This document shows positions 25,412-36,635 of a stretch of DNA of 48,128 bases, in pieces; the first letter of the stretch is position 1, and every line of letters starts with the position of its first letter. The notes under the pieces are model-generated. The model searched no databases, had not been told where the DNA came from, and saw only the letters and a list, made by a program, of their open reading frames with translations. The position numbers and the translations under genes are program-made. Source of the stretch: an uncultured Chitinophagales bacterium (GTDB lineage: Bacteria; Bacteroidota; Bacteroidia; Chitinophagales; JAHDHT01); NCBI GenBank assembly GCA_938023075.1, contig CALHDG010000210.1, forward strand, positions 1-48,128, written 5' to 3'.

Positions 25412-25458
25412 GTTCAATATGTTGAACATTTACACTATATTTGTTCAATATTATGAAC
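25412..25458 (+). promoter_or_regulatory. hipBA promoter and paired operator-like inverted repeats
   Basis: GTTCAATATGTTGAAC (25412-25427) and GTTCAATATTATGAAC (25443-25458) are two 16-base inverted repeats starting 31 bases apart, about three helical turns. A TATATTTG -7 box (25436-25443) lies between them, and the hipB ATG (25453) is inside the second. HipB-type repressors bind such repeats, so autorepression is the natural reading. Confidence 0.7.
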
Positions 25459-25770
25459 ATTAAGCAGCAACACGTAAAACTTTCTTTAAAAGAACAGCGG
25501 GTATTAAAACAGTTAGGTGAAAATCTTAAATTGGCAAGGTTGAGAAGAAAATTTTCTGCCGATTTGGTAGCAGAACGTGCCCAAATTAGTAGAACAACGC
25601 TTTGGCATTTAGAAAAAGGCAAAGCTACTGTTTCTTTAAGCACGTTGTTACGGGTGTTGTCGGTTTATGGTATGCAACAAGATATACTAAAACTGGCAGA
25701 GGATGATGTTTTGGGACGTAAACTGCAAGATGCTAACTTGAAAGTGAATAAACGAGCTACTAAAAAATAA
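25453..25770 (+). CDS. hipB: HipB-type antitoxin, XRE-family HTH repressor
   Basis: 105 residues from ATG 25453. A frame from TTG 25441 would begin upstream of the likely transcription start, so the ATG is chosen. The helix-turn-helix is LGENLKLARLRRKFSADLVA followed by ERAQISRTTLWHLEKGKATV SLSTLL, a normal XRE pattern. HipB binds and inhibits HipA and represses the operon. The C-terminal tail is basic (NLKVNKRATKK). hipA follows after three bases. Confidence 0.88.
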   Translation: MNIKQQHVKLSLKEQRVLKQLGENLKLARLRRKFSADLVAERAQISRTTLWHLEKGKATVSLSTLLRVLSVYGMQQDILKLAEDDVLGRKLQDANLKVNKRATKK

Positions 25771-25773
25771 AAA

Positions 25774-27036
25774 ATGTCAACTATTTTTGTATATGCTGAT
25801 TGGCTAGGCTTGCCTGCCATACAATTAATGGGGGTGTTGAGAACAGAAATTTCAAAAGGCGAAGAAATTTTTTCTTTTGAATACAACCACGAATGGTTGC
25901 AAAGTGCTTATGCACAAGATATTGATCCTGATTTGAAACTGTATGCTGGTCCGCAATATTTGAGTGATGAAAAACCTAATTTTGGTTTATTCTCCGATTC
26001 TTCGCCTGATAGATGGGGCAGAATGTTAATGAAAAAAAGGGAAGCTATAAGAGCAAGAGAAACTGGTGTATCCATTCAAAAACTATACGAATCTGATTTT
26101 TTATTGGGCGTAAATGATGCGGTTAGAATGGGTGCGCTACGTTTTAAAACTGCTTTGGAGGGAAACTTTTTAGAATACGATGAACATGTGAAAGTGCCAC
26201 CAATTTCTAGCATCAGAACTTTAGAACAAGCGAGTTTACGTATTGAAGAAGATGATTTTTTAAATGATAAAAAAGCTAAAACCTGGCTAAAATTGTTGAT
26301 GGCACCCGGCTCTTCGTTGGGTGGTGCGCGACCTAAAGCGAGTGTGGTAAATACAGACGGCAGCTTGTGGATTGCAAAATTTCCAAGTAAAAACGATGAC
26401 AAAGATGCGGGAATATGGGAGCTATTAGCCAACCGGCTTGCTCAAAAAGTAGGCATAAATGTAGCCGTTGCCAAAGCAGCTATCTTTTCGCAAAAACAAC
26501 ATACTTTTTTAACCAAACGATTTGATCGACCGAATACCAACCAACGCTACCATTTTGCCTCAGCCATCACTTTGTTGGGTTACAAAGATGGAAATAGTCA
26601 CAAAGAAGGCGTAAGCTATCTTGAACTGGTCGATTTTATAGAACGATACGGTGCAATGCCAAAGGCAGATATTCAAGAGCTTTGGAGAAGAATTGTTTTT
26701 TCAGTCGCTATTTCTAATACCGACGATCATTTGAGAAACCATGGATTTATTTTAAGTCGAAAAGGTTGGCTGTTATCGCCTGCTTACGATATAAACCCCA
26801 ACGAAGATGGTACAGGTTTGAGCCTTAACATTTCAGAAGAGGATAACAGCCTAAGTTTTGAGTTATGTTTATCAGTAGCTCCTTTTTTTAGATGGGCTTT
26901 ACAAGATGCCAAAGCTTATATTAGCACCACAAAAAAAACAGTCAGCCAATGGAAGCAATTGGCAAAGCAGTTTAATATTTCAAATAGCCAACAGAGTTTA
27001 ATGGCAAGGGCTTTTGATATGGGTTTGAAAATTTAA
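25774..27036 (+). CDS. hipA: HipA-family toxin, serine/threonine protein kinase
   Basis: 420 residues, full length. Visible are the N-terminal subdomain (FGLFSDSSPDRWGRMLM, about 70-86), the glycine-rich loop with the expected regulatory serines (GSSLGGARPKA, 179-189) and the ATP-binding lysine in WIAKFP (Lys202). The catalytic loop SNTDDHLRNHGF (314-325) and the metal site SPAYDINP (335-342) follow. In E. coli HipA phosphorylates GltX and stops translation, leading to persistence; the target here is unknown. All key residues are present, so it should be active. It forms an operon with hipB and is followed by an M3 fragment. Confidence 0.93.
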   Translation: MSTIFVYADWLGLPAIQLMGVLRTEISKGEEIFSFEYNHEWLQSAYAQDIDPDLKLYAGPQYLSDEKPNFGLFSDSSPDRWGRMLMKKREAIRARETGVSIQKLYESDFLLGVNDAVRMGALRFKTALEGNFLEYDEHVKVPPISSIRTLEQASLRIEEDDFLNDKKAKTWLKLLMAPGSSLGGARPKASVVNTDGSLWIAKFPSKNDDKDAGIWELLANRLAQKVGINVAVAKAAIFSQKQHTFLTKRFDRPNTNQRYHFASAITLLGYKDGNSHKEGVSYLELVDFIERYGAMPKADIQELWRRIVFSVAISNTDDHLRNHGFILSRKGWLLSPAYDINPNEDGTGLSLNISEEDNSLSFELCLSVAPFFRWALQDAKAYISTTKKTVSQWKQLAKQFNISNSQQSLMARAFDMGLKI

Positions 27037-27166: not shown

Positions 27167-27403
27167 ATGAGTATGCAACAGCAAAAGTCAAATCTCATCA
27201 ATTGGATTGAAAGTGTGCAAGACGAATCATTGCTTGAAAAGATAATTTCCTATAAAGATTTATTGGTTAACACCGATAAAGATTGGTGGCAAGAAATTCC
27301 AGAAAGGCATAAAGATTCAATTGCTAAAGGTATGCAAGAAGCTGAAAATGACAAGGTGATGAGTTTAGAAGAATTTCGCAAACTCTATACCGCAAGAATA
27401 TAA
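27167..27403 (+). CDS. Antitoxin-like protein of a RelE/ParE-type toxin-antitoxin pair
   Basis: 78 residues (an internal Met at residue 3 is an alternative start). NLINWIESVQDESLLEKIIS is followed by DKDWWQEIPERHKDSIAKGM and NDKVMSLEEFRKLY. This pattern is typical of the small acidic proteins encoded just before RelE/ParE toxins in Bacteroidota. The C-terminal helix would bind the toxin. No clear DNA-binding fold can be named. Its stop overlaps the toxin frame by about 17 bases. Confidence 0.7.
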   Translation: MSMQQQKSNLINWIESVQDESLLEKIISYKDLLVNTDKDWWQEIPERHKDSIAKGMQEAENDKVMSLEEFRKLYTARI

Positions 27404-27683
27404 ACTTTTTGTTACGCCTAACGCAACTGCCGGCTTAGCTAATATTGTCAGTTACATCGAAGGTCGCTTTTCGGTTAACATTGCTAATAAATTTTTAAGT
27501 GATTTTGACGAAATTTTATTTTTGATAAAAACACAACCAACCATGTTTCCTACTTCAAAAACTTCCAACAGGGTAAGAAGAGCTTTAGTAAACCGGTTAA
27601 CCTCTATCTATTTTAAAATTGATCAGGATATTATTGTTATTTTGGCAATTGAAGATAACAGAAAACAACAGCCAAGGTTTTAA
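27387..27683 (+). CDS. RelE/ParE-family toxin without a standard start codon
   Basis: The open frame runs from after TAG 27366-27368 to TAA 27681-27683 and has no ATG, GTG or TTG in its first part. The first candidate with the right position is ATA at 27387, giving about 98 residues. It reads EYKLFVTPNATAGLANIVSY, then RFSVNIANKFLSDFDEILFL and VNRLTSIYFKIDQDIIVILA, ending IEDNRKQQPRF. This is the RelE/ParE fold, with the usual basic strand and final D-x-R. ParE-type toxins block gyrase and RelE-type toxins cut mRNA; which applies is not clear. The true start is uncertain: a rare ATA/ATT codon, re-initiation after the antitoxin stop, or a lost start. Confidence 0.65.
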   Translation: MPQEYKLFVTPNATAGLANIVSYIEGRFSVNIANKFLSDFDEILFLIKTQPTMFPTSKTSNRVRRALVNRLTSIYFKIDQDIIVILAIEDNRKQQPRF

Positions 27684-27710: not shown

Positions 27711-27872
27711 ATGGGCACACGAGTACCGATAAAAAATTTGTTTGATTATTTGGGAGGAGGCGAACCTTTATCAGAATTTTTAGATGATTTTCCCACCGTT
27801 AATAAAGAGCAAGTTGAAAAGGTGATACAAATGGCACTTCAATCATTGATGCGTGTAACCAAAGTTGGCTGA
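27711..27872 (+). CDS. Short DUF433-like protein, probably N-terminally truncated
   Basis: 53 residues: GTRVPIKNLFDYLGGGEPLS, then EFLDDFPTVNKEQVEKVIQM. This is the helix-turn-helix core of DUF433 proteins (GTRVxVxxxxxxLxxGxxxxxxLxxFP), which are often antitoxins. Full-length members have about 15-20 more residues before GTR (the IxGGKPxIK strand), and these are missing; an in-frame stop lies 8 codons upstream. It starts 28 bases after the RelE-type toxin. A PIN-type partner would be expected nearby, but none is present. Confidence 0.6.
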   Translation: MGTRVPIKNLFDYLGGGEPLSEFLDDFPTVNKEQVEKVIQMALQSLMRVTKVG

Positions 27873-27944: not shown

Positions 27945-28828
27945 CTACTGATTGGTAGCTAATTTATAATTACGAATTTCTAAATTTTTCAGATGCTTTA
28001 AAGGGCTCACATCTACCGCTTTATCACAATAAAGAATTTTCAAATTTTTCAAAGGACTTAAATTGTTAACATTTGTACCCTTAAAACTCAGTGTTTGTAA
28101 ATTTTGCAAATTTTTTAAAGGGCTTAAATCGCTGACTTGGGTGTTGAAAAAAAATAATTCTTTTAATTGCCATAAATCTTCTAACGGGCTTAAATCATCA
28201 ATTCAGTTTCCATTACTTCGTTATTATTTATACCTAATAACTCTTCTCTGTTGGCACAAAATTTTGTCAGTGTTCCTAAAAAATCCTCATAATAAAACAA
28301 AGCTGTATAAATTTCTGAATGATATGCATACAAATAAGTGACCACTATTAATGAGCAAATATCCTGTTCAGTAATAGTACCTTGTTTCTCATTTCCCAAT
28401 TCATTTTTAGATTCCAGTAAAGCAAATAACGAATTCACAAATATTTTAATACTTCTTGGTATAGGAGGGAGAAAATCATATGCTTCTAAATGTTTCAACA
28501 CTTCGTTATACACCAATTGATTTAAGCTGCCTAAATCTTCTGCTAATTTTTTAAAATACTTTACTTTTTGCTCTCTATCCAACAGCGGAATGTGAAAAAC
28601 ATCCTGAACAATTTTTTCCAAATACAATTTAGAAGTCGCTTTGGTATTTTCTTTTTCATATTTTAATTGGATAATCCGTTCAATCGCTTTTTGATCAATA
28701 CTCAACAAAAAAATACAATTGTCGAAATTGAGGTAGAGCTTCATCGCTTCAAAAATAGCGAAGGCTACTTCCGGTTCGCAGCGGTCTAAGTCGTCGATGA
28801 TGATGACAAGTTTGGTCTTAAAACACAA
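27945..28828 (-). pseudogene. Decayed KAP-family P-loop NTPase with C-terminal leucine-rich repeats
   Basis: The frame 28828-28190 (TTG start, 212 codons) opens inside a KAP NTPase domain at KLVIIIDDLDRCEPEVAFAI, which is the Walker B region. The Walker A half is absent and no start lies upstream. It ends NEVMETELMI at a stop, but the -1 frame continues at once as DDLSPLEDLWQLKELFFFNT, then QVSDLSPLKNLQNLQTLSFK and further DLSPLKNL leucine-rich repeats, ending at TAG 27947-27945. A gene of the KAP-LRR type has therefore lost its 5' part and gained a frameshift. KAP NTPases include phage-exclusion proteins such as PifA, so the ancestor may have been a defence protein; that is inference. Confidence 0.75.
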
Positions 28829-28966
28829 AATAAAAAAAGTGTCAACTACTTTTAGTATTAGATAAACTTGTCAAAAATTTGAACCGTTAACTTCACAACA
28901 CCCGACTCCAACTTCAATAACCCACACTTCCAGTCAATTATTTCGTAAAGTAAAACACCATCTTTT

Positions 28967-36502: not shown

Positions 36503-36533
36503 TTAGTTAATTGAAGAGGGCGAACCTGGCAAT

Positions 36534-36635
36534 CTAGCCCCGATTGCAGCGGTATCCTTTCCCGTTCACGAAGTGACGGGAAAGATTTAGCGGAAAGCGG
36601 GCTGCTCCTTTCCAAGTACAATTATACTTTCGCTT
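36534..36635 (+). repeat. AGCCC-family copy 6 with a strong inner hairpin
   Basis: TAGCCCCGATTGCAGCGG (36534-36551) and AGCGGAAAGCGGGCT (about 36588-36602) are the outer arms. The inner CTTTCCCGTTCAC pairs with GTGACGGGAAAG with one bulge. The tail CTTTCGCTTC ends at 36635, 42 bases before the next gene. Confidence 0.75.

Follow-up and report, generated by a model that had tools for sequence, protein, structure and literature searches.

A KAP ATPase fragment beside leucine-rich repeats in a Chitinophagales genome is probably the deletion scar of a paired KAP and NACHT-LRR gene unit

On the minus strand of the window, by which we mean the whole 48,128-nucleotide stretch analyzed here from an uncultured Chitinophagales bacterium, a fragment of a KAP NTPase gene is followed by a short run of leucine-rich repeats (LRRs). 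We read this arrangement, with a probability of roughly 0.7, as the dead scar of deletions in a two-gene unit, kap followed by nacht-lrr, whose intact form would work in the way proposed further below. The apparent fusion of KAP to LRRs in the window is most likely a deletion junction. The window copy matters only in that it points to the family and illustrates how its members decay. The features concerned are as follows:

28190..28828, minus strand: KAP NTPase remnant, about residues 220-415 of a KAP of about 487 residues, with Walker B and the helical part kept, and with Walker A, the N-terminus, and the C-terminal tail lost relative to such a protein
28814..28828, minus strand: approximate 5' breakpoint, where similarity to full-length KAPs starts, just before Walker B
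28215..28250, minus strand: approximate position of the putative internal deletion junction, with the KAP tail and the NACHT core missing and a change of frame
27945..28202, minus strand: LRR tail remnant of four internalin-type repeats, with a stop codon at 27945

The KAP part lies in a 226-codon open frame (28193-28870, minus strand), which places it in the P-loop domain family PF07693 with an E-value of 2.7e-21, the match covering no more than profile positions 150-286 of 293. The fragment retains the Walker B stretch (IIIDDLDRCEPEVAF), whereas Walker A, the P-loop on which the ability to bind nucleotide depends, is absent from the window and present in the unbroken paired relatives. The fragment shares 45% identity over 204 columns with the KAPs of loci L016 and L035, and in L035 (487 residues) the similarity extends no further than residue 415, so that the C-terminal tail is missing as well. 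In tblastn comparisons, the matches of 10 KAP proteins begin at 28813-28828, with K99 at 28819. The LRR part (27948-28202, minus strand) matches PF12799 LRR_4 above the cut-off (E 2.3e-9), and its four repeats start DLSPLEDL, DLSPLKNL, NLSPLKNL, and DVSPLKHL. The codon starts of the KAP part (28813) and the LRR part (28202) are 611 nt apart, and the two fall in tblastn frames -2 and -1; this spacing puts the LRRs in the -1 frame relative to KAP. Taken as sequence statistics, the E-values rule out a chance origin of the two matches. An earlier note on this DNA had described a remnant at 27945-28828 made of a KAP domain that keeps Walker B, has lost its Walker A half, and is followed in the -1 frame by about four LRRs, and its coordinates and its anatomy are both borne out. 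At the junction, similarity to KAP ends at 28250-28256 for the best matches and at 28232 with L039, and similarity to LRR tails starts at 28214. Both remnant frames are open apart from the frame shift at this point. The direct repeats found there give no sign of a simple repeat-mediated loss, and the search for a NACHT core in the window gave no match better than E 0.4, so that no NACHT module was found beside the window LRRs.

Intact relatives exist elsewhere, as the earlier note had anticipated, in the form of full-length KAPs with a NACHT gene behind them. A search of 99 related genomes with the window fragment gave matches at E 0.001 or better in 12, its own genome included. The best non-self match, in genome G097 (46% identity, E 1.5e-41), is to a KAP of 487 aa with Walker A present, and the next gene, separate and overlapping, encodes a NACHT protein with LRRs at its end, at which point the contig runs out. 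A first scan of genome_contigs with the window fragment alone yielded 42 pattern matches and no confirmed locus; a scan with an alignment of two KAPs yielded 44 loci, which were found via two short peptide patterns and are not an exhaustive sample. Of the 44, 11 (L035-L044 and L056) have a NACHT gene directly downstream of KAP and in the same orientation, at a start-to-stop distance of -40 to +4; they comprise L056, in which the KAP frame is broken, and the ten rows that score best in tblastn. Their hosts are Chitinophagales MAGs, Methylococcales, Pseudoalteromonas, and Nitrospirota, with L039 coming from Methylomonas fluvii and L041 from Pseudoalteromonas sp. EB27. The pairing count is to be read with its method in mind: since the paired loci themselves supplied the sequences for the KAP and NACHT profiles, other KAPs could have neighbors from a different NACHT family that escape detection, and many search loci come with a flank of only 1.5 kb. 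L043 and L044 belong to one genome, and L035 and contig C421 of G097 are apparently the same contig.

The partner genes are consistent in their anatomy. Pfam NACHT was found above the cut-off in all 10 partners scanned (L016, L036-L042, L044, and L099), with the partners of L043 and L056 outside the scan. All eight of the scanned partners from the LRR clade (L016, L036-L041, and L099) carry NACHT and LRRs in one protein, the LRR of L041 being below the Pfam cut-off, and the Nitrospirota partners L042 and L044 gave no Pfam LRR match. Intact KAPs measure 439-533 aa, and the intact nacht-lrr product measures about 700-940 aa. The latter has the layout of an NLR, with about 85-110 residues without a recognized domain, then NACHT, a helical part, and the LRRs; no N-terminal effector domain was recognized in the NACHT-LRR partners. 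The contigs of the two closest relatives, L035 and L036, end inside LRR arrays. The KAPs have no clear transmembrane segments (top 19-residue mean hydropathy 1.54). In Crenothrix (L040), the LRR array consists of many near-identical units, which suggests, from the sequence, a recent expansion of the sensor. In Nitrospirota, the NACHT partners of at least L043 and L044 terminate in long AMDM-rich repeats, which may have taken the place of the sensor part.

The earlier note had proposed a single KAP-LRR fusion protein, and a true fusion that later suffered a frameshift and a 5' truncation would account for the mere 50 or so bases that separate KAP from the LRRs in the window. KAP can also replace STAND NTPases in other conflict proteins (PMC8195603), a substitution likewise described in PMC10907252. 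However, the partner LRR profile matches none of the KAP ORFs (72 distinct sequences among 81 entries; best E 0.26), KAP and NACHT-LRR are two adjacent genes in all close intact relatives, and the window KAP does not have the C-terminal tail of intact KAPs, so that we regard a decayed fusion as highly improbable. As a control, six partner proteins match the same profile at 3e-6 or better, which is partly circular as the profile was built from those six. Of the NLR-like sensor in the earlier note, then, the sensor survives, in the NACHT-LRR partner gene, and the single chain does not.

The pairing was also examined in further genomes: among 395 that belong to the window's class, the KAP profile matched 10 at E 1e-25 or better. 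With the window itself set aside, one KAP, in G1031, stands at 426 bits and the next at 157. The gene that follows the G1031 KAP, about 260 bases away and in the same orientation, encodes a NACHT protein of 700 aa whose LRRs are of the window type (Pfam KAP 2.3e-23, NACHT 2.1e-8, LRR_4 8.5e-9). In nine other KAP loci of this search, as well as in one from a plasmid, all of which score 85-164 bits in a profile made for this analysis, the available flanks contain no such NACHT, and G1031 is thus the sole new locus with a NACHT gene as well as the sole one with a KAP score in the high band. A maximum-likelihood tree of the shared KAP region was computed from 64 sequences, leaving out the duplicates (L001, L004, L005, L007, L016, L019, L020, L032, and L033), the broken L056 and L059, and five sequences with fewer than 80 aligned columns (69 reduced to 64); L099 was added after the tree. 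The window groups with L035 and L036 with a support of 100, and then with L037-L041 with a support of 99. The partners of all seven of these tree neighbors are NACHT-LRR proteins. The next node (support 99) adds L030, L063, and L068, in which no NACHT was detected, the flank of L030 being too short to tell. The Nitrospirota pairs, without LRRs, fall elsewhere in the tree, and the NACHT pairing therefore spans more than one KAP clade.

With these relatives as reference, the history of the window copy can be proposed. The ancestral unit would have consisted of kap (about 440-530 aa) and, directly behind it, nacht-lrr (about 700-940 aa). About the first 219 KAP residues, Walker A included, would have been lost, and a second deletion would have taken the KAP tail and about 600 residues of the NACHT-LRR protein, joining the last LRRs to the KAP remnant out of frame. 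The position of the LRRs, 3' of KAP on the same strand, is explained by the gene order of the pair, and the LRR tail at 27945..28202 is read as the putative 3' end of the lost NACHT-LRR gene. Its homology to this particular family cannot be proven from 85 residues, as LRRs are common. The window repeats are of the same type as those of the NACHT-LRR proteins of L035-L040 and L099. Against a scar of the pair stand the missing letters of a NACHT core in the window and the missing intact pair in the same genome; in its favor we count a second decayed KAP copy of this family, in Methylococcales (L059, 5992-6586), of which the N-terminal portion remains, spread over two frames and breaking off just past Walker B. 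Its second piece is up to 91% identical to the Crenothrix KAP, and no NACHT match was found in this locus. The same missing NACHT core would fit a different history, in which the two remnants are unrelated and an LRR tail from elsewhere was moved beside the KAP fragment by rearrangement; LRRs are widespread, and the genome has other LRR proteins (in L085). We consider this unlikely, since strand and order are those of the pair, the repeat type is that of its NACHT-LRR proteins and visibly unlike that of the L085 protein, and the 85-aa LRR segment matches only itself in its own genome at E 0.01 or better.

Own-genome searches also bear on whether the contig is to be trusted at this place. The genome (6.1 Mb) is in 288 contigs, and the contigs of L035 and L036, which end in LRR arrays, indicate that such arrays break assemblies; the organism could therefore have an intact pair, two parts of which were misjoined in the contig. 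But the junction does not lie between near-identical repeats, and neither the KAP N-terminus nor the NACHT core of the family, nor an intact pair, was found elsewhere in the genome, which makes a misassembly very unlikely. The genome does encode one other NACHT protein (contig C137, E 1.2e-7), and the NACHT query of L016 returned only LRR matches in this genome. A deletion scar remains our preferred reading, and its surroundings have the character of an accessory patch, judging by its neighbors. On the plus strand, an HTH protein and a HipA-like kinase (25441-27036; HipA_C E 5.5e-48) form a HipBA-like toxin-antitoxin pair next to the scar, a small gene precedes an overlapping ParE-like toxin frame (27167-27683; PF05016 E 6.7e-6, above the cut-off), and a DUF433 fragment follows (27711-27872, E 1.5e-8). 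The sole Rfam match within the window is a Flavo-1 RNA (36532-36608, plus strand; RF01705, 60.6 bits). Two further loci of the same genome may be mentioned here. L018 (contig C159, 525-6663) encodes a weak KAP-like ATPase, a TPR protein, a DUF4062-like protein (below the cut-off), and an NB-ARC protein truncated where the contig ends, a gene row that looks like a further NLR-like conflict locus. In L017 (contig C55, 6644-10095), a gene for an nSTAND6/KAP-like ATPase adjoins one for an AAA ATPase with TPR, and the two are possibly another paired-ATPase unit.

Structure models relate both proteins of the pair to known folds. The AlphaFold2 model of the L036 KAP (pLDDT 69.3, pTM 0.73) aligns with RdrA of RADAR at Z 20.7 (rmsd 4.5, 369 aligned), the best other family being ORC at Z 14.6, and Foldseek gives RdrA with E 1.5e-8 at a TM of only 0.46. 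Among PDB sequences, the sole match of the KAP profile is RdrA (8fnu, E 4.7e-4). The ATPase part of KAP is accordingly predicted, at the level of the model, to have the RdrA fold. For the NACHT-LRR protein of L038 (pLDDT 83.7, pTM 0.77), NOD2 comes first in Foldseek with E 1.1e-14, with a poor overall superposition (TM 0.31, rmsd 13.7); the LRRs of internalins score nearly as well, and a second structure aligner lists only LRR proteins.

Alongside the observed anatomy, pairing, clade, and fold resemblance, we infer that the pair is probably an antiviral two-gene system. The C-terminal LRRs of the NACHT protein would sense an infection-related molecule, upon which the NACHT NTPase would switch and assemble. 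KAP, as an RdrA-like AAA+ ATPase, would form a ring that serves as the effector or as an effector platform; we assign it this role because the NACHT protein has no recognized N-terminal effector domain, and it is the natural candidate since RdrA and QatA, to which it is related, assemble into seven- or eight-membered rings. The two proteins would be in contact, and execution may proceed through the KAP ring, with nucleic acid or another protein as its target. In its fullest form, which we advance tentatively and hold to be possible rather than probable, the proposal is that KAP and NACHT-LRR make up an undescribed two-component immune system, in which an effector-less NLR-type receptor activates a separate RdrA-like KAP ring ATPase and in which lineages differ by exchange or expansion of the LRR sensor. 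Should the pair prove to be an immune system, it would join two classes of phage-defense ATPases, the NLR-type NACHT-LRR and the RdrA/QatA-type KAP, in a minimal two-gene unit, and would offer a simple route to understanding the action of bacterial NLRs that have no fused effector. The earlier note had suggested that intact copies could be an undescribed defense protein; the intact relatives look like an undescribed pair of genes with a putative role in defense. The intact pairs lie in unrelated neighborhoods with little sign of defense islands, and the check for enrichment near known defense genes that the earlier note had suggested yields little: PADLOC, run on a few neighbors, returned one DNA methyltransferase (next to L040) and one weak PDC-S09 match (next to L039). 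No third gene is common to the 12 pair loci (69 neighbor ORFs, with only two cross-locus matches, of peripheral genes), and in G001 the neighboring permease was not found in synteny.

KAP ATPases with roles in defense are known, as are NLR-like proteins of bacteria, and what may be new is the pairing. Bacteria have been reported to encode NACHT modules with LRRs, termed “bona fide bacterial NLRs” (PLoS Biol 2025, PMC12169576). The partner of the pair resembles these and bNACHT proteins in its NACHT NTPase and C-terminal LRRs, but differs in the lack of a recognized N-terminal effector domain and in the position of its gene beside a KAP ATPase gene. It reaches only 33.7 of 1000 bits with EruA, the NCBIfam antiphage NACHT model, far under the cut-off. 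RADAR is likewise a two-gene unit with a KAP ATPase, whose RdrA assembles as a heptameric ring (PMC9994260) and is closest to our KAP model. However, in the 10 partners scanned with Pfam, the gene adjacent to KAP encodes NACHT and not the RdrB adenosine deaminase, and the KAPs (439-533 aa) do not have most of the C-terminal lobe of RdrA (aligned chains 781-852 residues). Qat shares with the pair a KAP NTPase in a multi-gene defense operon, and QatA, which binds DNA and assembles as a heptamer or octamer (PMC13279940), is the NCBIfam match and is among the best PADLOC matches; here, the gene adjacent to KAP is NACHT, and the QatA equivalog scores of 89.5, 94, and 90.1 bits are well below the cut-off of 600. 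The KAP of L016 matches PADLOC PDC-S20 (E 7e-26) over part of the model only. Another related arrangement is an operon type that combines Orc/CDC6, KAP, and STAND NTPases, is related to Dnd, and is predicted to counter invaders (PMC10853773). It has KAP and NACHT in one operon as well, but there the STAND NTPase is fused to Orc/CDC6, whereas here NACHT-LRR stands alone as the second gene. With bacterial NLRs, KAP defense ATPases, and related KAP/STAND operons already in print, the likely novelty is the pairing: the literature searches made here did not turn up a KAP and NACHT-LRR pair. The supplementary clades of a 2023 Cell paper on NLR-related proteins of bacteria could include the family.

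KAPs were also looked for in viral contigs, phages, and plasmids. No NACHT partner was found beside the 6 KAP loci of viral contigs, and a phage search returned 4 records without a lead. The plasmid matches are distant (88, 73, and 44 records, all below 60% identity). Another instance of a KAP beside a repeat protein occurs on the Acaryochloris plasmid pREC4 (L087, 5989-7934), the one plasmid neighborhood examined, where a KAP NTPase gene is followed by a gene for a pentapeptide-repeat protein.
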